Virus record (IMG/VR): IMGVR_UViG_3300042326_002145
Span: 1 to 35,607 of that record
Strand: one strand, 5' to 3'
Length of the DNA stretch: 35,607 nt
Source: a virus
The position numbers were made by a program, and so were the translations under genes. Under the pieces are notes generated by a model that was given only the letters and a program-made list of their open reading frames with translations, was not told the origin of the DNA and did not search any database. Within the stretch, counting starts at the first letter, position 1. Every line of letters begins with the position of its first letter. Shown in pieces: positions 7,862-31,174 of the stretch.

Positions 7862-10800
7862 ATGGTAAATTCAAAATTTGATTCTAGAGTTAAAATTCAA
7901 CAAATTATTGATAGTCAGATTCCAGAATTTATTTTAGATGAAAATCCAAAAGCAGCGGAATTTCTAAAGCAATATTATATTTCACAAGAATATCAAGGTG
8001 GCCCAATTGATATTGTTGAAAATTTAGATCAATATTTAAAATTAGATAATTTACTTCCAGAAGTTATTGTAGGATTTACGAGTTTAACATCTGGTATTTC
8101 TTCATCTTCTACAAATATTGTCGTTAATTCAACCAAAGGATTCCCTTCGAAATATGGGTTGTTGAAAATAGATGATGAAATTATTACTTATACTGGAATA
8201 ACTACGAATACCTTTACTGGTTGCATTCGTGGATTTAGTGGAATTACAAATTATCATAAGAATTTGCAATATGAAGAATTGGTTTTTAGCGAATCAGTAT
8301 CAGAACCTCATAATTTTGAATCAAAGGTAGAAAATCTTAGTTCCTTATTTTTAAAAGAATTTTATAAAAAAATTAAATTTACTTTAACTCCAGGATTAGA
8401 AGAATTAAATTTCAATGAAAATTTAAATGTAGGCAATTTTATAAAAGAATCAAAGAGTTTGTATGAAACAAAAGGAACTCCAGAATCTTTTAGAATATTA
8501 TTTAATGTTCTTTTTGGAGAAACTCCAAAAATAATTAACCTAGAACAATTTTTAATTAAGTCATCCGATTCAGATTATATAAGAAGAAATGTAGCAGTAA
8601 TTAAAGCAATTTCCGGAGACCCAACTAAATTAACTGGACAAACAATTAAAAAATCTACCGATGAGGGAACCAGTGCTTCAGTTTCTGAAGTAGAAACAAT
8701 CACAAGAAAAAGTAAGACATACTATAAACTTAACTTTTTTGTTGGATATGATGATAGTTATCCAAATATTACTGGCACGTTTTCAGTCACTCCAAATACA
8801 AAAGTAATTGATAATGTAATATTATCTTCTACTAAAACTGGAGTAGTTACAGTAGATTCTACAATTGGATTTGCGGAATCTGGAAGTTTTTTTTATGAGG
8901 ACTATGAGGTATTTTATTCCAGAAAAACAATCAACCAATTTTTAGGTTGTTATATTAATTCTAATGAATCAGTCAATGTACTCAAAAAATCTTTATTGAT
9001 TTCAAATGAAACTTATTATGGATATGAAAATGGCGATTTAGAAAAAAAAGTAGAATTTATAATCACTGGAGTTATATCTGATATTTTTGTAAGTGATAAT
9101 TCTTACAATTTTATTGAAGGAGATGAAATATATCCTCAAAATTTAGGTGAGATTATTTCGCAAGGAAAAAGTAATAAGCAAATTTTTGCAAATAGTTGGA
9201 TTTACAATACAAGTTCAAGATATCAAGTAGATAATTTTTCTGGATTTACAATTACTATAAAATCAAAAATAGATTCTGTAAGTATTTCAGTTGGTGACAC
9301 AATTGAAATACTTGATAGAAATACTGAAAATGTAATTTCTACTGCAATTATTACTGGTATTGATCTTAACGCCAATCAAATTACAATAAATCAGAATATT
9401 AATTTATCTGGAAATTATGATATTAGAAGAATACTTAAAAAGGCAAATTCGCCAATAGTTCCAATCGAATTTGGAAATGATAAGATTACATCCGATATTC
9501 AAAATGTATACAATGAAAATGATGCATATATGTATGTTGCATCTAATTCTTTACCATCCTATCAAATACAAAAAAATGTATTTGAATATACTATAACCAA
9601 ACTGAGTGGAAAGAATGACGATGATGAGTATAGTATCATTGAGTTTAATGATGTAATTTCATTCATAACCGGAGATAAGGTATTATACTACACAGATGAA
9701 AATTCCACAATTGTAGGTTTGGTGGAAGGTCCTTATTTTGTGGAGGTTTTATCGGACAAAAAATCAATTAAACTTCATTTAAGTTCCTCTACAATTGGTA
9801 GTAGTGATTTTGTAACATTTGGACAATTTTCGAATGGTTCAATCGTAGGAAATCATAAGGTTATACTTTATTCTCAAAAATCTAAAACTATTTCTCCACA
9901 AAAATTACTAAAAAAGTTTCCATTAGATAGAAAAACTTCAGATAATAAAATTTACGAAACAATTCCAGGATCAATTGGAATGTTAAAAAATGGAGTTGAA
10001 ATATACAATTATAAAACAAATGATAAAATTTATTATGGACCTTTAGAAAATGTAGACGTTTTAAGTGGTGGAAATAATTATGATGTAATAAATCCACCAG
10101 TCTTAACAATATCTACAGGGTCTGCTGTTCTTTATCCAGTGATAACTGGTTCCGTTAAAAAAATATTTGTAGATCCTCAAGAATTTGATATTGATGTAAA
10201 TATATCAATACAATTAAGTGGTGGAAATGGATCAAATTCTTCATTTAAACCAATTTTTGAAAAGTATGCGAGAGAAATTGAATTTGATGCTAGATCTATT
10301 TTAAATGGTGGTGGAATAGATTCTGTAGATGAAGTTATAGCATTCAAAGAAAATCACAATCTAATTAATGGACAACCACTTGTTTATAATAACAACAACT
10401 TTAATTCTATTGGAATAGGAACTTTTAAGGGTTCTAATTTGGATCAAGGTAAAACATTAGTAAAAAATGCAATTTATTATACAGAAGTAATTAATGATAA
10501 AACAATTCGACTATATCAAAATTTTTCAGACTATTCATCAGGAATCAATACTGTAGGATTCACTACTATTGGAAATTCTGGAACTCATAAGTTCAAAACT
10601 GAAGTAAAAAATAGATTAGTTGATATACAAGTTATTTCCGAAGGAAGTGGTTATTCAAATAGAAAAATTAGAGTATCTCCATCTGGAATTTCAACTTTTG
10701 ATCATACTATAAATTTTAAAAATCATGGGTTTTCTGATGGAGAAGTAGTCTCATATGAATATCAAACTTCCAATATTTCTGGATTAACAACATCAAATTC

Positions 10801-13800
10801 ATATAAAGTTCTAAAACTAAATTCTGATAATTTTAGGATTTGTGATATTGGAATAGGTGGAACTGATAATTCCAATTTTACTAGAAAAAATTATGTAAAA
10901 TTTTCATCTACTGGTTCGGGATATCAGTTTTTTAGTTACCCAAAAATTATCTTATCAGTTGATTATACTTCTGTTGGTCTTGGGAGTACTCAAGTCAGAG
11001 GTTTAATTAATGCAGTTCCATTAATTAGAGGATCTATTGAAGATGTTTATATCTATGAAAAAGGATCAGATTACGGATCTCTTATTTTAAATAATCACCA
11101 AAGACCTCAAATTACTATTAAAAATGGAAGAGAAGCAGAATTAAAACCAGTTATTATAAATGGAAGAATTACATCAGTTCAAGTTCTATATGGAGGTTTT
11201 GAATATTACTCAACTCCAGATTTACTTGTTTTGGGTAATGGAGTTGGTGCATCATTAAGACCAGTAGTTACAAATAATAAAATTTCAAGCATTATAGTTA
11301 TTAACTCTGGGGCAGGATATGATGAGAATACTACCTCTATAATTGCAATTTCTGCAGGTCAAAATGCAAAACTTCAACCAAATATAAGATCATTAACATT
11401 AAATAATTCTTATAAGTATGGTATTCAAAATGCATTATATAGAGATCCTGCTAGTGAAATTTTAGTAGAAACTGAGAATAATCTCAAATATGCAATTGTA
11501 GGATATACCACACATATTAAAGATGCCGGAAATGCCTCAACACATTCGGATATTATTGGATGGGCATATGATGGAAATCCAATTTATGGGCCTTATGGTT
11601 ATTCTGACCCATATTCATCTTCATCAGTTAAAGTATTAAGTTCTGGATATTCTAAAGTAACTGTTGAAAATAGACCAAATTTCCCAGAAGGATATTTTGT
11701 AGAAGATTATGCATTTACTAATGCAGGTGATTTAGATGAATATAATGGAAGATTTGGTAAGACTAAAGATTTTCCAAATGGAACATATGCTTATTTCACA
11801 ACTATTGAATCCAATAATGATGGTAACAATATTGGTAAATTTCCATATTTTATTGGAAACAAATACAGATCTATGAATTTGAATGAAAATTCAAACTTAG
11901 ATCAATCTTTTAGTTTCAATAGTTCAAATTTAATTAGAAATACTACTCCATATAAAGTCAAAGAAGAATATGCCGATAATGATTTTATTGTAGAATCAAA
12001 TGAAATCATTGAGCAAAAAACTTTAATTGAATCCGTTTCATATGGTAGTGTTTCAGAATTGAAAATTTTAAATTCTGGTTCTGACTATAAAGTAGGAGAT
12101 CAAATAAATTTCGAATCCAATGATAGTGGTGGGGGAATTTTAGCAAAAGTTTCCGAAATAACCGGAAAAGAAATTGAACAAATCGAGACAACTGTAGATT
12201 ATTACAATGATTCAGTAGTAACTTGGGAAAATGGTAATTCCATAAATGTACACATTTACCCATATCATAATCTATCGAATAAAGATATTATCAATATATC
12301 AGGAGTATCAACTCAGGTTTCTGTTTTAGATGGATCATATCAAATTGGAGTAACTTCTTATTTCGCTAAATTAGAAAAGGAAATACCTGCATATTCACTT
12401 ACTGGAATAGTTACTGACATTTATTTAACATCTATTCCTGAAAATATTTCTGTAGGAAGTAGTTTTAAAATCAACAATGAACTATTTTCAATTTTAAATA
12501 TTTACAACAACTATGGAGTTATAAGAGTAAGTAGGGAAACTAGTGGCGGAATACACACTCAATCATCTTCAATATACTTTCTCCCGGATACATTTACAAT
12601 AAACAAATTAACAGAATATTTTGATTCTACAGTAAATTCAAAAGTATTTTTTAATCCAACAAAATCTGTTGGCATTGGTACAATAGTTGGTGTAGGAACA
12701 AATGTTAATTATAACATTGGAATTACATCTTATTCAGAATTTATACCGACACAAAGTATTTTTATACCAAATCACCGCTTCAAAACAGGTCAAAAAGTAA
12801 TATTCAAAAAACCAACTGGTGGAGATTCTATTGCTGTATCTGAAACTCCTACAAGTCTATCTTTCAATATTCTAAGTGGAAGTTCTGAAGTATTGTATGT
12901 TATCAATAAGTCATTAGATTATATTGGTATTGTCACTAATGTAGGATTAACGACAAATAGTTCTGGTTTATTCTTTAGAAATACTACGTGGAATTCTGGT
13001 CATGATAGTTATCAATATTCTATAGAATCAGATTTAAATCAAATTAAAGTAGATATCAGCAAAATAAAATCTGTAGTATCTGTTTCAACATCTCATAACT
13101 TACAGATTGGTGACAAAATATCTTTAAGAGTAAATCCAAATTTAAATGTTGGTATTGGAACCTCAACATCAGTAAAGATTAAACTTGATCCTCTGATTCA
13201 GAAAATAATTATCAATCCTACTCAATTTAGTTCTTCGGGAATAAACACAACATCTGATACTATTCTATTAAATTCTCATAGTTTAAATACTGGCGATAAA
13301 ATTATTTTTAATACACTTGGTTCTATACCTTCAGGAATAACAACTGGTTGCTATTTTATATACAAAGTAGATAATGATAATATCAAATTATGTGAAACAT
13401 ATTACGATTCAGTGGTTAATCCACCTGAAACATTGAAATTAACCACTCAGGGAAGTGGAATTCACGAAATTAGTTTAATTAATCCAAAAATAAATCAAAT
13501 CAAAAATAATAATTTAATTTTTGATTTATCAGATTCTTCTCTGTCTGGATACAACTTTAAAATTTACTCAGATAAAGATTTTAAAAAGGAATTTGTTTCA
13601 ATTGAAAATTCTAATACAAAAGTAGTATCGGGTGTTGGAACTGTTGGAGTGTCCACAAATGCATCATTGACTATAAATTATAAAGATTTTGTTCCTGAAA
13701 AAATTTATTATAATTTAGAAAAATCTGGGTATATTAGTACTGCAGATTCAGAAGTAAATAATTACTCTGAAATACTGTTTACCGATAGTTTATATTATGG

Positions 13801-16800
13801 TACTTATAATGTAAGTGGAATTGGAACAACTACTTTTACAATTTCACTAAAAAATACTCCAGAGAAATTAAACTATTATCAGTCTGAATGTGATATTTTA
13901 AAATATAATACTACATCTAAAACTTCAACTGGAGGAATCAGTAAAATAAATCTCTTATCCGGTGGATATGGATATAAATCTTTACCAGATTTTATAGGTT
14001 CAAATTCTTTAAATGGAAAAGGTGCATTTATTATTCCATATTCAAATACTATTGGAAAAATAACAAAAAGTAGAATTATAAATGAAGGATTTGAATATTC
14101 TTCAGATAAAACACTGAGACCAACAGCAGCAATTCCACAAGTTGCTTATATAGCATCATCAAATACTATTGATACGATTGATGTATTAAGTGGTGGTAAA
14201 AATTATATTTCACCCCCTGATCTAATTTTAATAGATTCCAGTACTGAAGAATCTATTAACTCTGGATTTTTAAAAGCAAAGTTAAATGGATCTTCTATTG
14301 GTTCAGTAGATATTGAAATACCCCCAAAAGGTTTACCAATTAATCCCGTTACAATTAAATCAATTAACAATACAAATGGGATAACAATTGATAAAGTTCA
14401 AAGTTCTTCTTCAGGAATAGTTACTTGTTTTATCACTACTCCTTTACTTGGATTTTCAATACAACCATTCCAACCTGGAGATAGGATATTTGTAGAAGGA
14501 ATAGAAAAAACAAATTCCTCTGGAGATGGATTTAATTCTCCAGATCATGGATATAATTTTTTTGAAGTTAAAAATTACTATGCATTAAATCCAGACAAAG
14601 TAGAATTTGATATATCAGACTTTACAAATAATCCGGGAGTAGCAAAAACTATTCAAGAATCAAATGCTTCAATTGTAAATTATAAAAATTATCCAGAATT
14701 TAAAGTAATTCAAAAATTCTCTCCTTTTTCTATTGGAGAGCAATTATCTTCCGATAATGGATTTGGATTTATTTCTAGAAATTTGAAAGTTGTTGATTGT
14801 CGAGAAAATGTAATTAGAGTAGTAGGTAGTTATTCTCTATCTATTGGGGAAAAAATAAGAGGATTGCAATCAGATAATGTAGCAGTTATAGACTCATTAT
14901 CTTCAACAAATGGAATTTATAATACTAATTCCTTTAATCTTCAAAATTTTGGATGGGAGAATGATACTGGAAAACTTAGTTATGATACTCAAGTAACTCC
15001 AGATAATGATTACTATCAAAATCTTTCATATACGGTAAAAAGCACTAAAACTTGGGAAGAGATATCATCCCCAGTATATGATTTATTACATACTAGTGGA
15101 ACTAAAAATTTTTCAGATACTCAATTTATTGAAAATGCACAATCAGGAATAGGAACTGTTGAATCTATTTTATCGTTAGTTAGTATGTTTGTTGAGGAAA
15201 ATAGAGTAGATACAATTAATAATTTTGATTTAGTTGTTGATGTGGATGTTATTGGAAATAAATCTAAATTTATAAAATTTGAAAAAGTCAGACTTAGTGA
15301 TTATATTCTATGTAAAACAAATAGAGTCTTACAAATTGATGATATTAGTAATGAGTTTTCAAGTTCTAATGACGAAATAGAGAATGTTGCGAATATTTTA
15401 CCATTGAATTCAGAAAGTGGATATAATAGATTTCTTGTTCAAGTTAAAAATATTTTATCTAATGAAATTCAATTTAATGAAATAATCACTTTAAATGATA
15501 ATGAAAATATTTTTACTTTATCCGTTTCGGAAATTGTAAGTAATAGTACTTTAGCAAACATCAGTGGATATGTTACTGAAGATAACAATTTTTATCTAAA
15601 ATTTGACCCATCTGATCCGTACAATTCAAATTACAATATTAAAATATTAAGAGATACCTTTACAAGTAAAACTGCAATAGGATCTACTGAAAATTTAAAT
15701 TGTGTTGATTTAATTGCTCAAAATAAAGTAGTTGCAAGTGGAATAACTACCTCAATCATAAGTTTAGATTCTTCCAAATATTCTTCAATCTACTCCAATA
15801 TTCACATATTAAATACAAATAGTTCTAACATGAACTATGTTCAAATTTATCTAGTTCATGATGGAACTGATACTTATATCAGTGAATATTATTTTGACGA
15901 TGAAAGTTATGAAAGTTATGGATTTATAGGATCTTTTGGAGCATCTTTAAATGGTGGAATTTTATCCTTAAACTATACAAATACAGAAAATGAAAATATT
16001 ATAGTAAGATCAAAAAATATTGGATTTGGATCAACTTCTTTAGGAACAGATTTCTATAGATTTAAGTTACCTGGGCAAATAGATGGTAATGAGAGAACTG
16101 TGGTTTTTGAATCAAACTACAATAATGTATCTTCAGGATCTACAAGTATTTTTGTTTTGGATAAAAATTTATTCAATTCAGTAAAATCTACAGTAAAAAT
16201 TGGTGTAGGACAAACAAGTTCTTTACATCAAATAATGACTGTTTATGATGGATCTGATATCTTCATAACTCAATACCCATTCTTATCTGTAGGAAGTACT
16301 ACAGGAATAGGTTCATTTGGTGCGACCGTAGATTCTACAAATATCATACTGAATTTTTATCCAGATCCTTTAATATCTGAAGAAAAAGAAATAATTTCTT
16401 TTAACGAATGTTTCTATTCTGATTTGGATCTTGTAAACCTTCCCCCAGATTTAGTTTATTCTCCAATCAGACAATCTGTAAGTGCTTCTAAGTTTTATGG
16501 CAAAAATTCACCATTTATTGATAAATTAGATTTTGAATCATATTCAAATGATATTCCAATATTCATGAAAACTTTTGATCCAATAACAACTATTGATATA
16601 TCAACTGGAATATGTACAATTCCTAATCATTTCTTCAATACTGGAGAAAGATTGATTTACAATCCAAAATCTACTTTTATTGGCATAGGTACATCAGCAA
16701 TAGGAATAGGTGCAACAGAAAACTATGTCGGTATAGTTACAACATTATTACCAGAAGTTCTTTATGCAATTAGAATTGATAGTAATACTTTCAGATTAGC

Positions 16801-19570: not shown

Positions 19571-19585
19571 TCATATGCTTAAACA

Positions 19586-19593
19586 TATAAATA
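19586..19593 (+). promoter_or_regulatory. Late promoter octamer TATAAATA upstream of gp8
   Basis: Exact match to the T4 late promoter sequence, in the 42-nt gap between the giant protein gene and gp8, 20 nt before the gp8 ATG. Best of the four late-promoter candidates. Confidence 0.78.
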
Positions 19594-19612
19594 TAAAAAA
19601 AGAATCATATAA

Positions 19613-21217
19613 ATGTCTGCAATAGTAACAGATCAATTTAGAATATTGAATGCTACCAATTTTATAGATTCGGTAGAAAATCAATCAAATTCCTTTTATG
19701 TTTGGGTTGGATTGGCAAATCCTGGAATATATACTGGATTTGCGCGAGATGCAAATTGGGATGGATCTGAGACTGCAGATCCATTAAATGCTGTTGTCCC
19801 AAATCCAATAGATAATTTAGATTATTTAACTCATTATAGTGATACTATTCTTTTTGGTAAAAAAATTACAGGAACAAATATACGAAGAGTTATTAAAAGA
19901 GTTGATTGGGTAAGAGGAAAGAAATATGACATGTATAGGCATGACTATAGTATTCTTAACAAAAGTCCTATAGCTCAAAGAGCAAGACTTTATGATTCTG
20001 AATATTATGTTATGAACACTGATTATAAAGTTTATATTTGTATACGAAATGGATCAAGTGGGATTAATTCCACGGGAAATCAATCATTATATGAACCAGA
20101 TTTTACTGATCTTGAACCATCAGTTTCTGGACTAGGAAATGATGGATATCTTTGGAAATACTTATTTACAGTCTCTCCTAGTGACATTGTAAAATTTGAT
20201 TCTACAGAATATATTACTTTGCCAAATAATTGGAACAGTTCTACAGATTCTCAAATTGTTTCTGTTAGAGAAAATGGAGATTCTAGTATCAATAATAATC
20301 AAATAAAAACTGTATACATTGATAATCCTGGAAAAAATTATCAGGGAGGTGAAAATAATGTAAAAGAAGTTGATATTTTAGGTGATGGTACTGGAGGAAA
20401 AGTTTCTATAACAGTAAATGCTAATGGAGAAATAATAGAAACAAATGTCACTTCTGGGGGAACAGGATATACCTATGGAATAGTTGATTTGGGAACAATG
20501 CAACCATCTGGAAATATTTCAAATCCTGCAAAATTAATCCCAATAATTCCACCATCTAAAGGGCATGGATATGATTTATATAAAGAACTTGGTGCGGATA
20601 AAATTATGATTTATTCTAGATTTGATGATTCGACAAGAGATTTCCCAATTAATACTAAATTTTGTCAAATTGGAATTCTTAAAAATCCAGAAAAATATGG
20701 ATCTATTGGAACTTTCACAGACTCACAGTTTTCGGGACTTTATGCAATACAGTTTAGTAGTGTAAACCAAATTGCCCCTCAGATTGGAGAAAAAATCATT
20801 CAAAATTCTACAGGGGCATTTGGTTATATTGCTTCATATGACACAGACACTAAAGTTTTAAAATATTTTAAAGATAGATCTTTATATTATGGATCATCAT
20901 ATGATCAAACTGATTATATTGGAATATCTAGTAGTAAAAATGCTAATGTGAATTTTATTAATCCACAAATACCAACATCAGAAGATACCATAGTTGGAAC
21001 CAATAGTGGATTCAATGGAACTCAAATTTCATCTCTAACCGGAATCACCACAACTATTAATGGTTCCGTTATAAATTTGGGTAGTTCTTTCACAAATGGT
21101 CTTGCCAATCCTGAGATAAATAAAAAGACGGGAGATATTATCTACATTGACAATAGACCCCTAGTATCAAGAAATATTAGGCAAAAAGAAGACATTAAAA
21201 TTATTCTGGAATTCTAA
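19613..21217 (+). CDS. 8: Baseplate wedge protein gp8
   Basis: 534 aa against 334 in T4. Conserved gp8 blocks are SNSFYVWVGLANP, PIDNLDYLTHYSDTILFGKK, IKRVDWVRGKKYDMY, YYVMNTDYKVYICI and GYLWKYLFTVSPSD (residues about 25-192). In T4 a gp8 dimer links gp7 and gp6/gp10 in the wedge. The extra length comes from inserts: a GxGY beta repeat at 233-290 (NPGKNYQGG ... TSGGTGYTYG) and a module at 392-428 (GEKIIQNSTGAFGY then SYDTDTKVLK) that also occurs in gp14. The start follows a TATAAATA late promoter. Three bases separate it from the next gene, so the two are probably cotranscribed. Confidence 0.92.
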   Translation: MSAIVTDQFRILNATNFIDSVENQSNSFYVWVGLANPGIYTGFARDANWDGSETADPLNAVVPNPIDNLDYLTHYSDTILFGKKITGTNIRRVIKRVDWVRGKKYDMYRHDYSILNKSPIAQRARLYDSEYYVMNTDYKVYICIRNGSSGINSTGNQSLYEPDFTDLEPSVSGLGNDGYLWKYLFTVSPSDIVKFDSTEYITLPNNWNSSTDSQIVSVRENGDSSINNNQIKTVYIDNPGKNYQGGENNVKEVDILGDGTGGKVSITVNANGEIIETNVTSGGTGYTYGIVDLGTMQPSGNISNPAKLIPIIPPSKGHGYDLYKELGADKIMIYSRFDDSTRDFPINTKFCQIGILKNPEKYGSIGTFTDSQFSGLYAIQFSSVNQIAPQIGEKIIQNSTGAFGYIASYDTDTKVLKYFKDRSLYYGSSYDQTDYIGISSSKNANVNFINPQIPTSEDTIVGTNSGFNGTQISSLTGITTTINGSVINLGSSFTNGLANPEINKKTGDIIYIDNRPLVSRNIRQKEDIKIILEF

Positions 21218-21220
21218 AAA

Positions 21221-24200
21221 ATGGCCCAAAAAACAAATTTAAATGTAAGTCCATATTTTGATGATTTTGACTCTGAAAAAAACTTTTATAGAGTTCTTTT
21301 TAATCCGGGAAGGCCAGTACAAACAAGAGAACTAAACAATATTCAATCAATTTTACAAAATCAAATTGAATCTTTTGGTAGTCACATTTTTAAGGAAGGT
21401 TCTGTAGTAATTCCTGGAAATGTCACTTACGATTCTCAATTTTTTGCAGTTAAGTTAAATTCAACTTCTTTGGGAGTCAATATATCAAATTATATTGAGC
21501 AATATGTTGGTAAAAAAATTGAAGGGCAAATATCAGGAATAACTGCTATAGTACAAAAGGTTGAAATTCCAAATAATACAAATGATCTAGAATATATTAC
21601 AATATATGTAAAATACTTAGATTCTGATAATAATTTCACAATAAATCCATTTACAGATGGTGAATCTTTAATATCAACTGAAAGTATCCTTTATGGAACT
21701 ACAACTATTTTTTCAGGAACTCCATTTGCAACATTAATTTCATCAGAATCCACATCTACTGGATCTGCAGCATCTATTAATGATGGAGTTTATTTTGTAA
21801 GGGGATCTTTTGTAGCGATAACAAAAGAAACTATAATTTTAGATTATTATTCAAATATTCCAACTTATCGCATAGGATTGAAAGTATCTGAAGAAATAAT
21901 AACAGCCAAAGAAGATCCTTCATTGTATGATAATGCAAAAGGATTCACAAATTATGCTGCCCCTGGTGCAGATAGATTTAAAATATCTTTATCATTAACA
22001 AAAAAAAGCATAGACAGTGTAGAAACTGATACTGATTTTATTGAACTTCTGAGAGTTGAAAATGGAGAAATAAAAAAGGTAAGTACAAAAACACAATATT
22101 CTCTAATTAGAGATTATCTTGCACAAAGAACTTTTGATGAATCTGGAAATTATTCAATAACTCCATTTAAAATATCTTTACACAATTCTTTAAATAATAG
22201 ACTTGGTAATGATGGATTATTTTTAGAAAATCAAAAAACAGAAGCAGGTAACACTCCTTCCGATGATTTGATGTGTATAAAGTTATCTCCAGGAAAATCA
22301 TACGTTAAGGGATATGATATTGAAAAAACAAATACTACTATTTTAGATGTAGAAAAACCAAGAACAACTCAAAAAGTTGAAAATGTTTCAATTCCATTTG
22401 AAATGGGCAATTTGTTGAGGATTAATAATGTAACGGGATCACCAAAACAAAATTTACCTGTAGAATTACACTCAGTAAGAAGAAGTGCATCGGGAACTCC
22501 TTCCTCTTCTACGAAAATTGGGGATGCTAGAGTTTATAATTTTAGAGTTACTGATGCTGCGTATAAAGATGAAACTACTAATTGGGATCTATATCTTTAT
22601 GATATACAGACATATACTGTATTGACTTTGAATCAACCTTTATCAAGTTCAGAACTACCAACTACATCTTTTGTTAAAGGTAAGAGTAGTGGTGCTAGTG
22701 GATTTGCAGTTTCTGCGGGAAATAATACAACAACAGTTACATTAACTCAAACATCTGGAACATTTATAAAAGGTGAGCAAATTTATATTAATGGCATTGA
22801 GTTATATTCTAGATCTATTGTAAATATAGATGTTTATGATGCATCAGATATTAAACAAATTTATCAGTCAACTTCTGTATCTCTATTTGGCGCACCTTTT
22901 ATAGGAGATTCTGTATTAACTAAAAATTTACCTATAGGATTTAATGCTTCTGATACTATTAATATTAATTCTTCAGGAACAGTTACTTGCCCAGGAAAGT
23001 TTTTTAATTCAATCAAACCTGGTAGTATTATTAGATACCAACCATCATCAGGATCTTTAGAAAAGTATAATAGAGTATCCAGTGTAAGTTCTACTGGTTC
23101 ATCAATGACCCTCGTAAGTGTCGCAAATGTTAATGGTATTTGTGATGGGTCTGTTGGAGTAGCAACAAACATATCATTTAGCATTGGATATCCAACAATT
23201 AGAAATAATGAAAAGGGATTTTTATATGCAGAATTACCAAATTCTAATATTTCTTCTGTAGATTTGAATGATTCAATTTTAACATTCTGCGCTCAATCTA
23301 CAAGTTCAAAATCCTCAAATAGTCCTATAGTATTATCTGTATCAGATTTTCCTCTACCTTCAGGAATATCAACAGCATTATTTCAAAGTTTTGATGAAGA
23401 GAGATACTCAGTACATTATAGTGATGGAACCACAGAATCTTTAACACCAGATAAATTCTCACTTATCAACAATCAAGTTACATTATCAAATTTAACACCA
23501 GGGAAAACAACATCAGCAATTAATGCAACATTTATAAAAAATGGTGTTCAAAGTAAACAAAAACAATTTAATAGAAGTCAAACAATAAATGTAATTTATT
23601 CAAAATATCCAGAATCTGGTACTGGAATCAGTACATCAGTAAATGATGGATTAATTTATAATCCATATTATGGACTTAGAGTTCAAGATGAAGAAATTTG
23701 TCTTAATTATCCAGATGTATCTAAAGTTTTAGCAATTTATGAATCTTTGGATACAAATAATCCAATTTTAGATTCTCTTTCATTTAGTGTTACATTAAAT
23801 GTTGGTACAAATGCATTAATTGGGGAAAATATTACAGGTTCTGAAAGTGGTTGTATTGCTAGAATTGTTACTAAGTTTGGAAATAGTGTAGGTATTATCT
23901 ATTTAAATTCAAACAGATTTTTAAATAATGAAAATGTAAAATTTAATGAGAGTAATATAATTGGTGAAATTGATACATTAACTCTAGGAAGTTATACTGA
24001 TATAACAAATAGATTCAAATTGGAAAAGGGACAAAAAGGGCAATATTATGATTACTCAAAAATTATTAGAGCAGAGGGTGAAACATCACCATCAAAAAGA
24101 TTATTAATTATTTTTGATTATTATAATGTTCCTCAGACAGATAATGGAGATGTTTTCACTGCTCTCAGTTATAAAAAAGAACAGTTTGCTGAAAATGTAC

Positions 24201-27200
24201 CACTTTTAGGTTCGAATAATATAAGAGCAACTGATACTTTGGATTTTAGACCAATAGTTCCTGTATTTTCAAGTATTGCATCTTCACCATTCCACTTTAC
24301 AAACAGAAACTTTGATTCATCAATTAAATTTAATCTTACCTCAAATGAAAGTAGCATTGTAAGTTACGATTATTATGTGGGTAGAATAGATAAAATTTAT
24401 TTGGATAAAAATGGAGATTTTATATATTTAAAAGGTTTATCAACTCTTGATCCAAAATCCCCAATTAAAACTAATGATGTAATGGAGTTGGCTACCATTA
24501 CTTTACCACCATATCTTTACAATGTAAAAAATGCTTCTATTTCACTAGTTGACAATAGAAGATATACTATGAGAGACATTGGATCTATTGAAAACAGGGT
24601 GCAAAACCTTGAAAGAGTTACATCCCTTTCTCTACTAGAGTTAAGCACTCAAACACTACAAATACAAGATTCTGAAGGATTTAATCGATTTAAGACTGGA
24701 TTTTTTGTTGATGATTTTAAAAATTATGAAAGAATTAATTCAAACTTATCCCTGATTGAAGTTGATTCCGATTCTCAAGAATTAACACCTATAGTATCTA
24801 GAAATAGTTTAAAGAATTATTTGGCACCACAATTAAGTATAATTGATGAAGAAATAGATCTTTCATCTAATTATAATTTAGTAGATTCAAATGTTCAAAA
24901 AACCGGAACCACAGTAACATTGAAATATGAGTCTAAAAAATGGATTGAACAACCACTGGCAACTCAAGTAGAAAATGTAAATCCATTTCATGTAGTATCA
25001 TATACTGGATCAGTAAAATTATCACCAAATAGGGATAATTGGGTAAGAACAATACAATTACCCAATAAGAGTATATCAGTTACAAATAATCTGTTATTAG
25101 AAAGAGATCAAGTTTTATTCGAAGAAAGAACTAATGTTGTAAATGTTGCTAATGTTGAAAGAAGAGGAGAAGTAGAAGTAAGTTCTCCTCAGTTATCTGC
25201 ATCTCAGAATATTTCAGAAAGTACAAATAGAACTACAACAACATCAAGTGTAACAAACTTAACTCAAACAAGTCCAGAAGAATTCATGAGATCAAGAAAT
25301 ACTGAATTTAGTATTTCTAATTTGAAACCATATACTCAATACTATCAATTTTTAGATGGTAATGGTTCTGTAGACTTTGTTCCAAAACTTGTTGAAATAT
25401 CAAGCAATAGTTCTTTAAATGATTTTGGTTCTTCATCCACATTCAATGTTGGTGAGAAAGTTTTAGGATATGATGCAAATAATAATTTGATTATATCCTT
25501 TAGAGTTGCCGCATCAAATCACAAGTCTGGTAGTTATAATTTACCATCAACAGTATTTGATACCAATCCTTATAATAAAAATGAAAATATTTCAGATGGT
25601 TACAGTCCATCATCTAAAGTATTGAATGTAGATACTTATTCATTATCAGAAGAGGCTCAAGGATTATATTCAGGATTTTTAGTTAAGGGTGCAAAATTAG
25701 TTGGGCAGAGTAGTGGTGCTATAGCATATGTTAAAGATCTCAGATTAATATCTGATAATTATGGAGATTTAATAGGAACCTTCTATATTAGAGATCCTCA
25801 TACAAGTCCTCCCCCAAATGTGAGAATTAATACTGGAAATAAAACTTATAAAATTACATCCAGTCCAACAAATGAGACTGCTGCTGCTGGTAGTACAACA
25901 ATTTCTAGTGGAGAAACTAACTATATTTCAGTTGGAACAATAGAATTTTATGAAACTACAATCACAAATACGACCAATGTAACTACTACCAGAACAAGAA
26001 CAACTACCTTAACAAATACAACAACAGTCACTAATTACTACGATCCCCTAGCACAATCTTTTAGTGTTGGTGGTAGTCAAACCAGAAATGATGATGAAAA
26101 TGGAATATTCCTAACATCAGTTGATCTTTATTTCTATAAAAAAGATTCTGGAACAAATCCATTAACTGTTCAGATAAGAACAGTTGAATTAGGAACTCCA
26201 ACTAGAACTATTTTAGGAAATTCTGTTACATTGAGACCAGATCAAATTAATACCTCAGAAGATTCGAGTGTTGCAACAAAAGTTACATTTGATTATCCAG
26301 TATATCTTGATCCTGGATTAGAATATTGTATTGTATTACTTGCTCCAGAAAGTGTAGAATATGAAGTTTTCATCGCTGAAATGGGCAAGAAAACAATTCA
26401 AAGTGCAAATCTCCCAGATTCAGAATCTGTAGTATATACTCAGCAGTTTGCTCTTGGAAGTCTATTTAAATCTCAAAATGGATCTATTTGGACTGCAAAT
26501 CAATATCAAGATATGAAATTTAGATTATATAGAGCTGAATTTATTTCTGATACTCCATCTACAGTTTATTTCTACAATCCATCATTAGATAGAAGTAATG
26601 GATATGTTAAAAATTTACAAACAAATCCAATTACGGTAATTCCTAGAAAATTAAAAGTTGGTATTACTACTATAACAGATTCAAACCTAGTACAAATTTT
26701 CAATAATGGTAGAAAAATTAGTGAAGGTGGTGTAAGTTCTAAAACTTATAACTATGGATATGTTTTCGGTACTGGATGTTCCGTTTCTTCTGTGGGTATT
26801 ACTACTGGTGGATTTAACTATGTTACATCTTCTCCAGTATCAACATATAATATCAATGGAAATGGTTCAGGATTAACTCTTAATATCACTGCAAGTGGTG
26901 GACTAATTACCAATGCTACTATTGCAAATCCTGGAAATGGTTATGCAATTGGTGATATAGTTGGAATAGTAACTTCTAGTGTTACAAGTTCTAGCGGAAG
27001 AGATGCTAGAATAACAATTACCGGAAACAATAATGGAATTGATACATTATACTTATCAAATGTTCAGGGAAATTCATTCACTTCAGGAAAAAATTTGGTA
27101 TATTACGATTCATCGAATACTGCCATTTCTTTAGCATCAACAACAATAGCAAATTCAACCCCAATAGGTTCTATTTACGATGGAAACTTTATTCGTGTGA

Positions 27201-28525
27201 ATCATTTTAATCATGGTATGTATTCTAAAAACAATAAAGTTTCAATTTCTGGAGTATTTTCTAATGTATTGCCAACTACTTTAACACAACCTATCATTAC
27301 ATCTTCAACTACAATTTCAGTTGCAAGTACTGCAAATTTTGCAACTTTTGAAGGTAAGTCTGTGGGTAATTTAAATCCTGGATATATAATCGTTGGAAAT
27401 GAAATCATTAAATATGAAAGTGTTAATGTAAACTCATTAACTGCAATATCAAGAGCACAAGATTATACAATAGCAATTCCTCATAATGTTGGTGATCAAG
27501 TTTACAAATATGAATTTGAAGGTGTTTCTTTAAGAAGAATCAATAATACTCATGATATTAGTGATGTTGGTTTAGATATTGATAGTTACTATATTGAATT
27601 TGATAGAACAACCAATGGTGTAAATAGATCAACTGATGGTACACCAACTGAACATCCTCAGTTATCTTTCTCCTCAGAATTGACCGGAGGAGGATCTGAT
27701 GTATTTGCCTCAGAAAATATTCAATATGATGCATTAATTCCATTTTATGATTTAATAACTCCATCGCCATTAACTTCGGTAACTGCAAAAATTAGATCTG
27801 TCAGTGGAACCAGTGTAAGTGGAAATGAAAAATCCTTTGATGATTTGGGATATGAAGATATTCAGTTGAATACATTGAATAGACTATATTCATCTAGAAT
27901 AGTTTGCTCCAAACCGAATGAAGAAGCATATCTAACTGCACTTCCAAGGAAAAAGTCATTTACAACTGCACTAACATTATATTCTTCAAATAAGTACCTT
28001 TCTCCTCAAATATTTTTAGATGGTTCGTTTACTGATTTCCATAGTAATAGAATAAATTCACCAGTATCAGACTATGCATTAGATGGTAGAGTTAATTCTA
28101 TTTTCAATGATCCACATGTTGCTATTTACATTTCAAATACTGTATTGCTATCTCAATCAGCAACTTCTCTAAAAGTTATTTTATCTGCATATAGACATGC
28201 AAGTGCAGACTTTAGAGTTCTGTATAAATTAATTAGACCAGATTCTAGTGAGGTTGAACAAGTATTTGAATTATTCCCAGGTTATGATAATCTTACAATA
28301 GATAATAATAATGATGGGTATTTAGATGTTGTCGATTCAAAAAATAATAATGGACTGCCTGATACTCTTGTTCGTGAAAGTAAAGCAAATGAATTTCTAG
28401 AATATGAATTTTCTGCAAATAATCTTGGAAGTTTTACTGGATACACCATTAAGATTGTAATGACTACAACAAATCAAGCATATCCACCAAGAATTAAAGA
28501 TCTAAGAACTATTGCATTGGCATAA
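21221..28525 (+). CDS. DUF4815 virion protein in the gp10 position (2434 aa)
   Basis: The N-terminus (NVSPYFDDFDSEKNFYRVLF, RPVQTRELNNIQSILQNQIE, FGSHIFKEGSVVIPG) is the DUF4815 signature of large cyanophage structural proteins. It follows gp8 where T4 encodes gp9/gp10, so a wedge/tail-pin or peripheral fibre-support role is inferred. Other landmarks: FMRSRNTEFSISNLKPYTQY near residue 1360; a Thr/Asn-rich linker at about 1578-1607 before NYYDPLAQSFSVGG; a GxGY beta repeat near 1856-1937; a GF-type module (STANF ... IIVGNEIIKYE) near 2024-2100; and a C-terminal carbohydrate-binding-like beta region ending PRIKDLRTIALA. It is about four times the length of T4 gp10 (602 aa). Its stop overlaps the next start (TAATG). 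Confidence 0.9.
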   Translation: MAQKTNLNVSPYFDDFDSEKNFYRVLFNPGRPVQTRELNNIQSILQNQIESFGSHIFKEGSVVIPGNVTYDSQFFAVKLNSTSLGVNISNYIEQYVGKKIEGQISGITAIVQKVEIPNNTNDLEYITIYVKYLDSDNNFTINPFTDGESLISTESILYGTTTIFSGTPFATLISSESTSTGSAASINDGVYFVRGSFVAITKETIILDYYSNIPTYRIGLKVSEEIITAKEDPSLYDNAKGFTNYAAPGADRFKISLSLTKKSIDSVETDTDFIELLRVENGEIKKVSTKTQYSLIRDYLAQRTFDESGNYSITPFKISLHNSLNNRLGNDGLFLENQKTEAGNTPSDDLMCIKLSPGKSYVKGYDIEKTNTTILDVEKPRTTQKVENVSIPFEMGNLLRINNVTGSPKQNLPVELHSVRRSASGTPSSSTKIGDARVYNFRVTDAAYKDETTNWDLYLYDIQTYTVLTLNQPLSSSELPTTSFVKGKSSGASGFAVSAGNNTTTVTLTQTSGTFIKGEQIYINGIELYSRSIVNIDVYDASDIKQIYQSTSVSLFGAPFIGDSVLTKNLPIGFNASDTININSSGTVTCPGKFFNSIKPGSIIRYQPSSGSLEKYNRVSSVSSTGSSMTLVSVANVNGICDGSVGVATNISFSIGYPTIRNNEKGFLYAELPNSNISSVDLNDSILTFCAQSTSSKSSNSPIVLSVSDFPLPSGISTALFQSFDEERYSVHYSDGTTESLTPDKFSLINNQVTLSNLTPGKTTSAINATFIKNGVQSKQKQFNRSQTINVIYSKYPESGTGISTSVNDGLIYNPYYGLRVQDEEICLNYPDVSKVLAIYESLDTNNPILDSLSFSVTLNVGTNALIGENITGSESGCIARIVTKFGNSVGIIYLNSNRFLNNENVKFNESNIIGEIDTLTLGSYTDITNRFKLEKGQKGQYYDYSKIIRAEGETSPSKRLLIIFDYYNVPQTDNGDVFTALSYKKEQFAENVPLLGSNNIRATDTLDFRPIVPVFSSIASSPFHFTNRNFDSSIKFNLTSNESSIVSYDYYVGRIDKIYLDKNGDFIYLKGLSTLDPKSPIKTNDVMELATITLPPYLYNVKNASISLVDNRRYTMRDIGSIENRVQNLERVTSLSLLELSTQTLQIQDSEGFNRFKTGFFVDDFKNYERINSNLSLIEVDSDSQELTPIVSRNSLKNYLAPQLSIIDEEIDLSSNYNLVDSNVQKTGTTVTLKYESKKWIEQPLATQVENVNPFHVVSYTGSVKLSPNRDNWVRTIQLPNKSISVTNNLLLERDQVLFEERTNVVNVANVERRGEVEVSSPQLSASQNISESTNRTTTTSSVTNLTQTSPEEFMRSRNTEFSISNLKPYTQYYQFLDGNGSVDFVPKLVEISSNSSLNDFGSSSTFNVGEKVLGYDANNNLIISFRVAASNHKSGSYNLPSTVFDTNPYNKNENISDGYSPSSKVLNVDTYSLSEEAQGLYSGFLVKGAKLVGQSSGAIAYVKDLRLISDNYGDLIGTFYIRDPHTSPPPNVRINTGNKTYKITSSPTNETAAAGSTTISSGETNYISVGTIEFYETTITNTTNVTTTRTRTTTLTNTTTVTNYYDPLAQSFSVGGSQTRNDDENGIFLTSVDLYFYKKDSGTNPLTVQIRTVELGTPTRTILGNSVTLRPDQINTSEDSSVATKVTFDYPVYLDPGLEYCIVLLAPESVEYEVFIAEMGKKTIQSANLPDSESVVYTQQFALGSLFKSQNGSIWTANQYQDMKFRLYRAEFISDTPSTVYFYNPSLDRSNGYVKNLQTNPITVIPRKLKVGITTITDSNLVQIFNNGRKISEGGVSSKTYNYGYVFGTGCSVSSVGITTGGFNYVTSSPVSTYNINGNGSGLTLNITASGGLITNATIANPGNGYAIGDIVGIVTSSVTSSSGRDARITITGNNNGIDTLYLSNVQGNSFTSGKNLVYYDSSNTAISLASTTIANSTPIGSIYDGNFIRVNHFNHGMYSKNNKVSISGVFSNVLPTTLTQPIITSSTTISVASTANFATFEGKSVGNLNPGYIIVGNEIIKYESVNVNSLTAISRAQDYTIAIPHNVGDQVYKYEFEGVSLRRINNTHDISDVGLDIDSYYIEFDRTTNGVNRSTDGTPTEHPQLSFSSELTGGGSDVFASENIQYDALIPFYDLITPSPLTSVTAKIRSVSGTSVSGNEKSFDDLGYEDIQLNTLNRLYSSRIVCSKPNEEAYLTALPRKKSFTTALTLYSSNKYLSPQIFLDGSFTDFHSNRINSPVSDYALDGRVNSIFNDPHVAIYISNTVLLSQSATSLKVILSAYRHASADFRVLYKLIRPDSSEVEQVFELFPGYDNLTIDNNNDGYLDVVDSKNNNGLPDTLVRESKANEFLEYEFSANNLGSFTGYTIKIVMTTTNQAYPPRIKDLRTIALA

Positions 28526-28876: not shown

Positions 28877-28883
28877 AGTAAAT

Positions 28884-28891
28884 CATAAATA
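28884..28891 (+). promoter_or_regulatory. Late promoter octamer CATAAATA upstream of gp13
   Basis: Matches NATAAATA in the 55-nt gap before gp13, 41 nt before the ATG. The genes gp13-gp14-gp15 overlap by one base and gp16 follows closely, so this site could drive the whole neck/packaging unit. Confidence 0.65.
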
Positions 28892-28931
28892 ATCAAAGAA
28901 TGCTACTTTTAGAAAATAAAGAATTATACTA

Positions 28932-29774
28932 ATGTCAAAACCTTCAAGTAGACAAGAATTAATTGATTATTGTTTAAGAAGATTGGGAGCTCCAATATTG
29001 GAGATTAATATTGCAGATGAACAAATTGATGATTTAGTCGATGATGCATTACAATACTTCTATGAAAGGCATTTTGATGGTGTCGAAAGAATGTATTTAA
29101 AATACAAAGTTACTCAAGATGATATAGATAGGGGAAAGGCAAAAAACACAAGTGGTGTAGGAATTGTAACAACAACATCAGAAGCAAATATTTCGGGAAT
29201 TGGAACGGTAACATATAATTTCTATGAAAATTCCAATTTCATTCAAGTTCCTGATAGTATAATTGGTATTGAAAAAGTTTTTAAATTTGACACTAGTTCT
29301 GTTTCTGGTGGAATGTGGAGTATAAAATATCAATTATTTTTAAATGATCTATATTACTTTAATTCAGTTGAACTTTTACAATATGCGATGGTGAAATCAT
29401 ATTTAGAAGATATTGATTTTCTATTATCTCCAGATAAGCAAATTAGATTTAACAAAAGACAAAATAGATTATATCTAGATATTGATTGGGGAGCAAAGTC
29501 TAAAGATACCTTTATAGTTATAGACTGCTACAGAATATTAAATCCCAATGAATATACAAAAGTGTATAATGATAGTTTTTTGAAAAAATATTTAACTGCA
29601 TTAATGAAAAGACAATGGGGGCAAAATTTAATTAAATTGAGAGGTGTAAAACTTCCAGGTGGTGTTGAATTAAATGGTGAAAGAATATACGAAGATGGTG
29701 AAAGGGAATTGCAGCAGATTAAAGAAAGAATGTCAATGGATTATGAATTACCTCCTTACGATTTTATTGGATAA
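28932..29774 (+). CDS. 13: Neck protein gp13
   Basis: 280 aa against 309 in T4. The N-terminus (SRQELIDYCLRRLGAPILEI, NIADEQIDDLVDDALQYFYE, RHFDGVERMYLKYKVTQDDI) and middle (NRLYLDIDW then KDTFIVIDCYRILNP) are the conserved gp13 blocks, and the C-terminus has LMKRQWGQNLIKLRGVKLPGG. In T4, gp13 and gp14 form the neck that closes the filled head and receives the tail. A short GIGT-like insert (GVGIVTTTSEANISGIGTVT, near 80-97) is the same small motif found across the giant tail protein. The stop overlaps the gp14 start (TAATG). No Shine-Dalgarno is seen; a late promoter octamer lies 41 nt upstream. Confidence 0.92.
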   Translation: MSKPSSRQELIDYCLRRLGAPILEINIADEQIDDLVDDALQYFYERHFDGVERMYLKYKVTQDDIDRGKAKNTSGVGIVTTTSEANISGIGTVTYNFYENSNFIQVPDSIIGIEKVFKFDTSSVSGGMWSIKYQLFLNDLYYFNSVELLQYAMVKSYLEDIDFLLSPDKQIRFNKRQNRLYLDIDWGAKSKDTFIVIDCYRILNPNEYTKVYNDSFLKKYLTALMKRQWGQNLIKLRGVKLPGGVELNGERIYEDGERELQQIKERMSMDYELPPYDFIG

Positions 29775-31174
29775 TGACACTTAATTCATTTTTTTTAAAT
29801 AATTCCCCAAATGAGCAAAGACTCATACAAGATCTAGTAAATGAAAATCTAAGGTTAGCTGGAATTGAAATATACTATATTCCAAGAAAAATAGTAAGAA
29901 AAGAAACAGTACTTAAAGAAATTTCATCCTCAAAATTCAATGATAATTTTGCAATAGAAGCTTACTTAGTTAATTATGATGGATATACTGGACAAGGTGA
30001 TTTATTAACTAAGTTTGGAGTTAGTTTGAAAGATGAAGTTAGTTTATTAATTTCCAAAGAAAGATATGAAGATTTTATTTCATATTTCTTAGACGAAGAT
30101 GATCCAGAAATAGAGTTAAATTCTCGACCAAGAGAAGGTGATTTGGTATATTTTCCTTTAGGAAAAAGATTATTTGAGGTTAAATTTGTTGAACATGAAA
30201 GTTCATTCTATCAACTTGGAAAACTTTATGTTTATGAATTGAAGTGTGAACTATTTGAATATGAAGATGAGATAATAGATACTACAGTTGATGAAATTGA
30301 TACCAGTATTAAGAATGAAGGATATATTACTGAAATTCAATTAACTAGAAGTGGTGAGACAGCAACTGCGATTGCTTCTATTGGAACTGGATATGTAAAT
30401 AAGATTTATTTAACTAATGATGGTTATGGATATACTTCCACTCCATCTATAGAAATATCTCCAGCACCTTTTGGTGGATCTAATGCATCTGCGGTTGCCA
30501 TTACTTCATCATATGGTTCTTTCAGATCAATTAAGGAAATAATACTATCTAATCCAGGTTTTGGATATACTATCCCACCAAAAATTACAATAACTGGTGG
30601 TGGTGGTGTAGGTGCTTCGGCAACATGTGCTATAGAAACTGTTAATACAGGAATAACAAGCATATCTATGATTAACAAAGGTTCTGGATATATGTCTAAA
30701 CCTTCAATATCCTTTTCTTCCCCAATTCCAGGTATTGGAGTAACACCTATAGGAATATCTTCACTATCAAATATGGGACAGATTGAGGCAATATTGTTAT
30801 CAAATTCTGGAATAGGTTATAGTTCTGCTCCGATTATAACCATTTCTCCACCACCAACTTCAGGTATAGACACTTCTATTATCAATTATAAATTTAATGA
30901 AATTGTAACTGGATCTATATCAGGAACAACTGCAAGAGTAAAATCTTGGGATTTAGATACTAAAGTTTTAAAAGTTTCATTTATAGATGATGTTAGTGCA
31001 AAGGGATTTTATCCTGGAGAAATTATTACTGGATCTGATTCCAATACGTCTTATGCTACGGTATCATTTGATTCTTTTGATAATAATGATAAATATAGTG
31101 AGAATAAAACAATTGAAACAGAAGCTGAACAAATAATAGACTTCTCAGAAAAAAATCCATTTGGTACTTACTGA
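29774..31174 (+). CDS. 14: Neck protein gp14 with inserted beta repeats
   Basis: 466 aa against 256 in T4. The gp14 core is residues 1-185 (NEQRLIQDLVNENLRLAGIE, IYYIPRKIVRKETVLKEISS, EGDLVYFPLGKRLFEVKFVE, YVYELKCELFEYEDE) plus the C-terminus, ending NPFGTY. Between them lie about 200 extra residues: four GxGY/P beta repeats of 41-45 residues (GYGYTSTPSIEISP 217, GFGYTIPPKITITG 262, GSGYMSKPSISFSS 303, GIGYSSAPIITISP 346) and then a module with SWDLDTKVLK (about 375-430) that also occurs in gp8. The core should act as in T4, forming the neck with gp13; the insert probably projects from it. Start and stop both overlap neighbours by one base. Confidence 0.92.
   Translation: MTLNSFFLNNSPNEQRLIQDLVNENLRLAGIEIYYIPRKIVRKETVLKEISSSKFNDNFAIEAYLVNYDGYTGQGDLLTKFGVSLKDEVSLLISKERYEDFISYFLDEDDPEIELNSRPREGDLVYFPLGKRLFEVKFVEHESSFYQLGKLYVYELKCELFEYEDEIIDTTVDEIDTSIKNEGYITEIQLTRSGETATAIASIGTGYVNKIYLTNDGYGYTSTPSIEISPAPFGGSNASAVAITSSYGSFRSIKEIILSNPGFGYTIPPKITITGGGGVGASATCAIETVNTGITSISMINKGSGYMSKPSISFSSPIPGIGVTPIGISSLSNMGQIEAILLSNSGIGYSSAPIITISPPPTSGIDTSIINYKFNEIVTGSISGTTARVKSWDLDTKVLKVSFIDDVSAKGFYPGEIITGSDSNTSYATVSFDSFDNNDKYSENKTIETEAEQIIDFSEKNPFGTY
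30422..30850 (+). repeat. Four tandem GxGY...P beta repeats inside gp14
   Basis: At the protein level, units start at gp14 residues 217, 262, 303 and 346, each reading G-x-G-Y-x-x-x-P-x-I-x-I-(S/T), followed by a Gly/Ser/Ala-rich turn, a strand, and an 'I-x-(S/A)-I-x-L-x-(N)' strand. Related units occur in the giant protein, gp8 and the DUF4815 protein. DNA identity between units is modest, so the copies are old or exchanged from diverged sources. Confidence 0.8.

Follow-up and report, generated by a model that had tools for sequence, protein, structure and literature searches.

A single family of tandem repeats, recognized by the motif GxGY...P, recurs in four otherwise unrelated virion proteins encoded in the 35,607-nt stretch of viral DNA analysed here (the window), a Kyanoviridae-like (T4-like cyanophage) fragment. 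We favor, with moderate confidence, the explanation that this homologous repeat is an exposed, interchangeable virion decoration, adhesive or spacer in role, that is exchanged by recombination. The GxGY unit would be a three-stranded β-repeat of ~42 residues with which T4-like cyanophages interchangeably decorate loops of their virion proteins.

All four carrier genes lie on the plus strand, as do all features given below. The first encodes a giant baseplate wedge protein in the place of gp7 (7862..19570, 3902 amino acids; phrog_2885, with PF14240 YHYH inside), followed by the baseplate wedge protein gp8 (19613..21217, 534 amino acids; phrog_438; PF09215 at 8.9e-13, with 48.4 bits against the Pfam Phage-Gp8 cut-off of 25), whose profile (A3) matches T4 gp8 at E 8e-26. 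The third encodes a DUF4815 (VrlC-like) baseplate protein (21221..28525, 2434 amino acids; phrog_358; PF16075 at 1.9e-57, with 195.3 bits against a cut-off of 30), and the fourth is the gene for the neck protein gp14, or head closure Hc2 (29774..31174, 466 amino acids; phrog_460; T4 gp14 chains 9mkb/9lu4). Window gp14 passes the Pfam T4_neck-protein cut-off (1.8e-29; 103.4 bits vs 25), and its residues 8–173 align with T4 gp14 at E 2e-22.

In gp14, the array occupies residues 184–371 (30323..30886; site A) and consists of 188 amino acids of repeat units only. The four tandem units foreseen in the original prediction were recovered at 30389..30487, 30527..30616, 30653..30739 and 30776..30868, with hidden Markov model (HMM) scores of 34, 33, 32 and 29 bits, respectively; the same HMM found no unit in gp14 of S-SM1, Syn1 or HTVC008M. 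The part beyond the array (30887..31171) probably forms, together with residues 181–191, a small β-barrel with a conserved tail in the AF2 model—a lead only, for which the best VIA match had a Z of 6.7, an rmsd of 3.9 and 81 aligned residues (as we infer them; model range 181–439). Window gp14 is longer than its T4 counterpart (466 vs 256 amino acids), and the T4 alignment stops at residue 173 with 70 T4 residues remaining—too few to hold both the array and the C-terminal part; part of the size difference stems from the insert, as had been proposed. Among relatives, gp14 has two alternative array sites, A and B, and 0, 2, 3, 4 or 8 detected units. Mean identity across 25 sequences is 78% in the N-terminal domain, 56% in the array and 62% in the C-terminal part. 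Because gp14 tolerates 0, 2, 4 or 8 units and divergence is faster in the array than in the domain preceding it, we infer on these sequence grounds that GxGY arrays are exposed on the particle surface; a faster-diverging region may also merely be unconstrained.

The DUF4815 protein likewise offers two sites. In an alignment of 16 homologues, the window carries an insert at site 1 (26636..27190, residues about 1806–1990, ends set by eye) that encloses a GxGY pair at 26756..27055, and its site 2 (26246..26247, at about residue 1675) is empty. Site 1 is empty in Syn1, S-CAM1, S-B68, HTVC008M and Melnitz, and the first three of these have a GxGY pair at site 2 instead, each site being filled or empty depending on the phage. 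The gp8 pair (20291..20500), placed by eye and by hhalign and marked by a weak single HMM match at 20300–20344 (E 0.083), sits at the same site in 17/17 panel phages by eye, with an HMM match in 11 of them. Its stretch is missing from T4 gp8, which has ~50 residues where the cyanophage gp8 profile spans ~129 positions, and this explains part of the length difference (534 vs 334 amino acids). The expectation that insert positions vary between relatives was therefore borne out for DUF4815 and gp14 but not for gp8. In the giant protein, HMM units were found at 10049..10120 (12 bits), 10619..10696 (15 bits), 11162..11251 (22 bits), 11279..11359 (11 bits), 13931..14026 (23 bits), 14165..14227 (14 bits) and 17888..17950 (19 bits), together with a weak one, additional to those originally listed, at 12044..12133 (9 bits, E 0.025). 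Five of these eight are common to at least seven of ten aligned giant proteins, the unit at 11162..11251 to all ten, and among these ten the one at 13931..14026 was detected in the window only. A fixed gp8 site and widely shared giant-protein units are what one would expect of a purely structural element.

Such a structural role is the alternative that survives best, although we judge it rather improbable: the repeats would be stiff β-spacers that enlarge and brace baseplates, necks and fibres, with no outside binding. The invariant gp8 position, the sites shared by the giant proteins of 10 phages and a confident, regular model of the array all speak for it. Against it stand the gp14, DUF4815, tail sheath and head copies, each present in some relatives and absent from others—for tail sheath and head protein, too, we observed filled and empty states—which indicates that many phages manage without the brace. 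The range in gp14 unit number points the same way.

The membership of these copies in one family is carried by profile searches. Regular expressions located the strict motif three times and GxGY...P five times in the window, always within the plus-strand genes already named. Starting from the four gp14 units, an iterated HMM (window units being counted at i-E <= 0.1) was run on 264 ORFs, taken from regions of 17 phages including the window; at i-E <= 0.01 it retrieved 157 units, spread over 41 proteins. Reversed proteins from the same ORF set gave 0 units and block-shuffled ones 1. These controls carry the weight rather than the E-values, since window sequences formed part of the HMM's training set. 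The window DUF4815 copy (26785–27030) was missed by this HMM, and a second one of a 'GxGY..GD' flavour, seeded with S-SM1-like fibre arrays, did not find it at E 0.1 either. Alignment-to-alignment comparison with hhalign relates it to the others: an alignment of 17 GxGY pairs (A6), which includes two DUF4815 pairs, both from site 2, unlike the window's site 1, matched the gp8 alignment (A7, 14 of 17 sequences) at 97.0% (E 9e-11) and that of ten DUF4815 homologues (A8) at 95.2% (E 2.7e-8). A7 and A8 matched each other at 97.6% (E 4e-12), and a control made of the gp14 barrel and C-terminus (A9) failed, at 0.1%. By these comparisons, the gp14, gp8, DUF4815 and giant-protein units belong to one homologous family, as predicted for these four proteins. 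Convergence, in which Gly/Tyr/Pro-rich β-hairpins came to resemble one another independently, could draw on the short, biased motif and on single-unit HMM matches that are weak in window gp8 and absent from window DUF4815; we consider it very unlikely in view of the near-empty controls and of profile–profile E-values between 1e-8 and 1e-12.

The repeat extends well beyond the four window proteins. A GxGY pair profile matched all of 15 related phage genomes, chosen by gp8 or gp14 homology (8 of which had lent rows to the profile), at 2 to 18 places each, HTVC008M and Melnitz having just two. At least nine virion protein families of the neck, wedge, hub, sheath, fibre and head carry GxGY in these relatives; by PHROG name, the carriers are gp14, gp8, DUF4815, the giant protein, hub gp5, tail sheath, head protein, wedge phrog_719 and tail fibre. 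The initial placement of the carriers in baseplate and neck thus holds for the window and is too narrow for its relatives.

Turnover was followed most closely in gp14. Of 409 ORFs, 395 had a complete N-terminal domain, and these were represented by 146 sequences at 95%; a tree of that domain, which may itself recombine, places 32 filled and 29 empty gp14 within a Syn1-like clade, with 9 filled/empty changes, 5 of them forced by supported branches. A more careful tree of the 61 Syn1-like sequences gave 10 changes (7 forced, bootstrap range 9–11), and a single clade of filled sequences was rejected (p-AU 9.7e-14, in a test set up after a tree had already been viewed). In the filled/empty pair L182 and L109, the first ~460 nt of gp14 are 83–100% identical; past that point identity falls to 53–75% with a 240-nt length difference, stays at 53–80% up to the gene end and returns to 83–92% just beyond gp14. 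Two of the five filled/empty pairs (L214/L139 and L223/L157) are diverged throughout, and the block is less clear. The interleaved states, together with the matching flanks, argue for allele exchange by recombination, and since the difference spans a block wider than the insert, it resembles homologous exchange. Across 31 filled alleles at site B, the insert and the N-terminal domain vary in step (Mantel r 0.56), so filled alleles are not freely shuffled. Among the best 80 of 444 relatives retrieved with the window as query, 79/79 gp14 ORFs were filled, with 3–4 units. In addition, reported selection on cyanophage gp14 is deemed by its authors indistinguishable from their own false-positive rate (PMC5112629).

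Most gp14 alleles come from IMG/VR contigs, and chimeric metagenome assemblies or uneven sampling might in principle produce the interleaving. This we regard as highly improbable, because isolate records show both states: Syn1 is without the unit, and a matching GxGY pair occurs in 36/50,697 phage records, among them Syn9, Syn10, S-RSM4, S-CAM4, S-WAM2 and S-CAM22, nearly all in genes annotated as neck protein, Hc2 or virion structural protein.

How the unit moves between genes is a separate matter. A DNA comparison of 721 units from 253 frames, sorted by masked similarity into five carrier groups (a set without hub, sheath, head and other further stretches), revealed no recent cross-gene copying: the best match between groups was 75.8% over at least 60 nt and 72.5% over at least 80 nt, with none reaching 100 nt. 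Nor did the gp14 insert contain a mobility gene, as it comprises repeats only, with no Pfam match in the array; inteins and homing genes were dropped as candidates on the same grounds. Without recent gene-to-gene copies or a mobility gene, a self-moving cassette is unsupported. A self-mobile in-frame cassette with its own movement function would suit a unit that turns up in numerous unrelated genes and, within one gene, at different sites, yet we give it hardly any credence given the low between-group DNA identity, the repeats-only window array and a filled/empty difference wider than the insert.

Structure prediction gives a confident, regular array. AF2 modelled the gp14 array alone with a pLDDT of 90.9 and a pTM of 0.82; in the whole-gp14 model (25 rows), most of residues 1–183 fell below a pLDDT of 50, and a fold search with that model ranked T4 gp14 first (E 8e-3). 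Foldseek of the array against the PDB gave a best E of 0.47 and none at 1e-3, and the best VIA match of the array model had a Z of 3.1, with Ig-type chains at 2.9 or less; absence of a listed solved relative does not prove that the predicted fold is new. BFVD yielded 35 matches to the array at E <= 1e-3, including cyanophages, Agrobacterium phage Atu_ph07, Alteromonas phage ZP6 and Sylvanvirus. Searches of Pfam and NCBIfam models and of PDB sequences returned zero matches for the copies searched, and we recognized no description of it in the open-access literature (PMC). Two gp14 proteins, the window array and one DUF4815 protein matched no Pfam Ig family at E up to 10, a search in which HMMER filters drop most weak matches.

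The closest parallel in kind may be the Ig-like domains of phages, reportedly one kind of domain that occurs on virion proteins of differing function, is gained and lost between relatives, and is said to help surface contact. The GxGY repeat shares this pattern—the same domain in unrelated virion proteins, present or absent among relatives, as in a promiscuous decoration—but is a ~42-residue tandem repeat without a Pfam Ig match, and our best reading is that it resembles, yet is distinct from, those domains. Smug et al. 2023 (PMC10684548) treat the shuffling of domains among phage proteins, neck passage proteins among them; there, too, exchanged domains lie beside near-identical flanks and cross functional classes. 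Mosaicism is counted there with known ECOD domains, whereas GxGY gave no Pfam, NCBIfam or PDB sequence match. With respect to T4 itself (gp14 and gp8 structures 9mkb/9lu4 and 1n7z; relative 9f4a), the gp14 N-terminal domain and most of gp8 are homologous, and the T4 gp14 alignment falls short of the window array.

If the decoration reading is right, the initial gene-to-gene spread would be old, and current turnover would proceed by homologous recombination at each gene. In gp14 of Syn1-like phages, the state has switched repeatedly, a central allele block having been exchanged between more conserved flanks. The arrays are putative decorations, multivalent and of low affinity, that would serve as adhesives or spacers; they might aid particle contact or help the particle stay near the host envelope, and could be replaced when hosts or waters change. 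That they are adhesive is probable. A bolder version, which we offer tentatively, holds that the array has a fold new to solved structures, is shared with bacterial proteins and forms an adhesive coat on every tier of the particle, filled and empty gp14 alleles coexisting in the sea as an exchangeable adsorption trait that homologous recombination spreads. T4-like cyanophages abound in the ocean and, to our knowledge, little is known about host adaptation of their baseplates, necks and fibres beyond the tail-fibre tips. Several core virion proteins owe to the repeat some of the length by which they exceed those of T4, and the repeat also marks sites of allele exchange; the natural filled (Syn9) and empty (Syn1) gp14 alleles make the role of the array directly testable.

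A curated GxGY model would allow annotation not only in phages but also in many bacterial proteins. Bacterial repeats are recognized by the same HMM and are arranged in tandem, often in longer arrays, whereas the phage copies are short inserts in virion proteins: 111 of 118 bacterial frames with the motif had at least two units, and up to 20 occurred in one frame. The carriers include Verrucomicrobia, Planctomycetes, Bacteroidetes, Acidobacteria and others, and one of the four bacterial proteins scanned has fn3 domains beside its GxGY repeats.

The 35,607-base IMG/VR virus record (G000) carries a T4-like baseplate-neck block encoding two wedge proteins in the gp25 and gp6 places (names taken from the annotation of relatives), a 3902-aa giant wedge protein (phrog_2885), gp8, a 2434-aa DUF4815 protein, gp13, gp14 and gp15. 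Judged by gp14, the closest named record is that of Synechococcus phage S-SRM01, a member of Kyanoviridae (57.7% over the whole protein). The giant protein also contains a YHYH domain (PF14240, E 1.6e-20) at 11513-11815.

A motif scan of the window bore out the GxGY positions named in the original prediction, and GxGY is a real β-repeat that has no name in the libraries searched. At i-E ≤ 0.01, an HMM seeded from the four gp14 units of the window identified 157 units, distributed over 41 of the 264 ORFs scanned; since its training includes window sequence, reliance was placed on the controls, in which reversed proteins yielded 0 units and block-shuffled proteins 1. Within the window, this HMM detected four units in gp14 and eight in the giant protein—including one at 12044-12133 absent from the prediction—and scored weakly on gp8, while the DUF4815 copy was detected neither by it nor by a second HMM. 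For these two proteins, alignments of the relevant stretch in 14 gp8 and 10 DUF4815 homologues were compared by hhalign with a 17-row alignment of GxGY pairs, giving 97.0% and 95.2%, respectively, together with 97.6% for gp8 against DUF4815 and 0.1% for a barrel control against GxGY. The proposal of one module common to all four proteins is thus upheld by the HMM for gp14 and the giant protein and by hhalign for the others.

The gp14 array, modeled alone, was predicted as twelve strands and no helix (pLDDT 90.9, pTM 0.82). No solved structure matched this model (lowest Foldseek E 0.47; highest VIA Z 3.1), a sequence search of the PDB with an eight-unit relative, that of S-CAM9, gave nothing credible (best E 0.12), and Pfam and NCBIfam listed nothing for the arrays submitted. 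In a model of the whole protein, the gp14 segments on both sides of the array probably make up a small barrel (best Z 6.7, below the trust level), which would place the array in a loop. The array model also matched BFVD entries A0A3G5AH46 and A0A3G5AH06 (E 2e-7 and 5e-4), predicted proteins labelled Sylvanvirus, a giant virus.

The module is widespread among virion proteins. Matches to a pair profile occurred in all 15 related genome records searched, 8 of which had contributed rows to that profile, at 2 (HTVC008M, Melnitz) to 18 (S-SM1) places per genome. A detectable unit was found in 15 of 16 outlying stretches sampled, and the ten of these 15 compared with PHROG matched a hub and lysozyme protein (phrog_1922, four stretches), a tail fibre (phrog_17885, three), and a wedge (phrog_719), head protein (phrog_613) and tail sheath (phrog_23), one each; counting gp14, gp8, the DUF4815 protein and the giant protein, carriers comprise nine families. 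Occupancy is uneven: the sheath held detectable GxGY in 1 of 15 genomes (S-CAM1), and the head protein in Syn1 and not in its S-CAM1 homologue. Across 15 phages, sheath ORFs (L433-L447) span 635-885 aa, with differing inserts near the place of the S-CAM1 array, a region that is likely an insertion hotspot. In S-SM1-like phages (L257-L336), the gene upstream of gp13 had 0, 1, 2 or 3 detectable units in 30, 19, 20 and 8 of 77 frames, counted in the flank-covered part.

Insert positions vary between relatives in gp14 and the DUF4815 protein, each with two sites found filled or empty, but not in gp8, whose stretch occupies a single site in 17/17 phages by eye (HMM match in 11/17). At gp14 site A, the window type, the array precedes the FNEIVTG strand of the C-terminal barrel; at site B, ~20 residues further on, a pair lies between GEEVVG and RAEVKSWD in phages whose best-matching segment shares 86-87% identity with Syn1. 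No unit was detected in gp14 of S-SM1, Syn1 or HTVC008M; across 14 panel sequences, window included, detected units numbered 0 (three sequences), 2 (two), 4 (eight) and 8 (one). Of the 16 DUF4815 proteins compared, ten, including that of the window, carry the module at site 1; those of Syn1, S-CAM1, S-B68, HTVC008M and Melnitz have nothing there, and that of S-SM1 has a different insert. Site 2 is occupied in just three of the set, Syn1, S-CAM1 and S-B68. Among ten giant proteins, five of the eight window units are common to at least 7, one to 5 and one to 2, and the unit at 13931-14026 was detected in no giant protein other than that of the window; a further two C-terminal sites occur in 8/10 and 7/10 of the set but are missing from the window and S-SRM01.

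The state of gp14 has changed repeatedly. We assembled 409 gp14 ORFs from the panel (14 ORFs) and the best 80 matches to each of five queries, so that proportions of states are not frequencies: each of the 79 ORFs contributed by the window query has 3-4 units; the Syn1 query added 4 filled ORFs and 76 empty ones, a filled Syn1-like query 76 further filled ones, and the S-SM1 and HTVC008M queries together 160 empty ones. One close relative (L048:1760-3151) has a single in-frame stop codon in gp14, either an error or a broken gene. A tree restricted to the N-terminal domain (146 representatives of 395) required one change for site A, on a branch with a support of only 36, and 9 state changes among the 32 filled and 29 empty members of the Syn1-like clade. 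A careful tree of the 61 Syn1-like sequences gave 10 changes (bootstrap range 9-11), 7 of them forced by supported branches, gains and losses being counted alike; a single clade of filled rows was rejected (p-AU 9.7e-14). Three of five aligned filled/empty DNA pairs (L182/L109, L180/L104, L212/L116) display a replaced central block between conserved flanks, the other two being more diverged and less clear in pattern. Upstream of gp13, identity between L182 and L109 falls to ~37-59% before base 900 of L182, this region being mosaic too. Isolate records hold both states, with Syn1 empty and the filled pair in other phages; scored by pair and not by site, it matched 36 of 50,697 phage records, all from Synechococcus phages or cyanophages. 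Insert and N-terminal distances correlated across 31 filled alleles (r 0.56), indicating that filled alleles are not freely shuffled.

Of the two proposed routes of spread, recombination stands for the present exchange of alleles at each gene and not for recent passage between genes. The 721 units in 253 frames fell into five carrier groups (later-sampled outlying stretches lie outside this set), between which the best DNA match reached 75.8% at ≥60 nt, with none at ≥100 nt. Together with an array composed of repeats only, this argues from sequence that gene-to-gene spread is old and that the current process is allele replacement; the same two observations disfavour an element moving as in-frame cassettes. 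Allele replacement is in keeping with general recombination among T4-like phages. Lateral exchange is discussed in PMC2993671, and PMC7029224 places gp14 of pelagimyophages beside their variable host recognition cluster, a closeness that may expose gp14 to exchange.

The tolerance of 0-8 units, and an identity of 56% in the gp14 array versus 78% in the preceding domain, suggest that the arrays are surface-exposed, where they could act as adhesive or spacer elements at the cell surface. A wild cyanophage survey (PMC5112629) lists gp14 among genes with a positive-selection signal and describes a gp14 cluster restricted to upwelling regions and the Mediterranean, with its own caution that selection signals did not exceed the false-positive rate. 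GxGY resembles phage Ig-like domains in behaving as a promiscuous virion domain, but is not Ig-like by sequence.

The module is not confined to phages. A motif scan of prokaryote genomes gave at least 119 stretches, and among the matches listed 118 were in an open frame, 111 of them with at least two units; in viral contigs the figure was 100 among the 120 matches listed. Compared with Pfam, three of four bacterial arrays had no match and one had fn3 plus a few other domains. A second module (F..GE.I.G..SGA.A.V) is seemingly common to the gp14 C-terminus (30887-31171) and the later part of gp8 (~20800-21110), at a place where T4 gp8 lacks ~100 residues, and PHROG gp8 family 438 matched gp14 residues 369-441 at E 1e-4.
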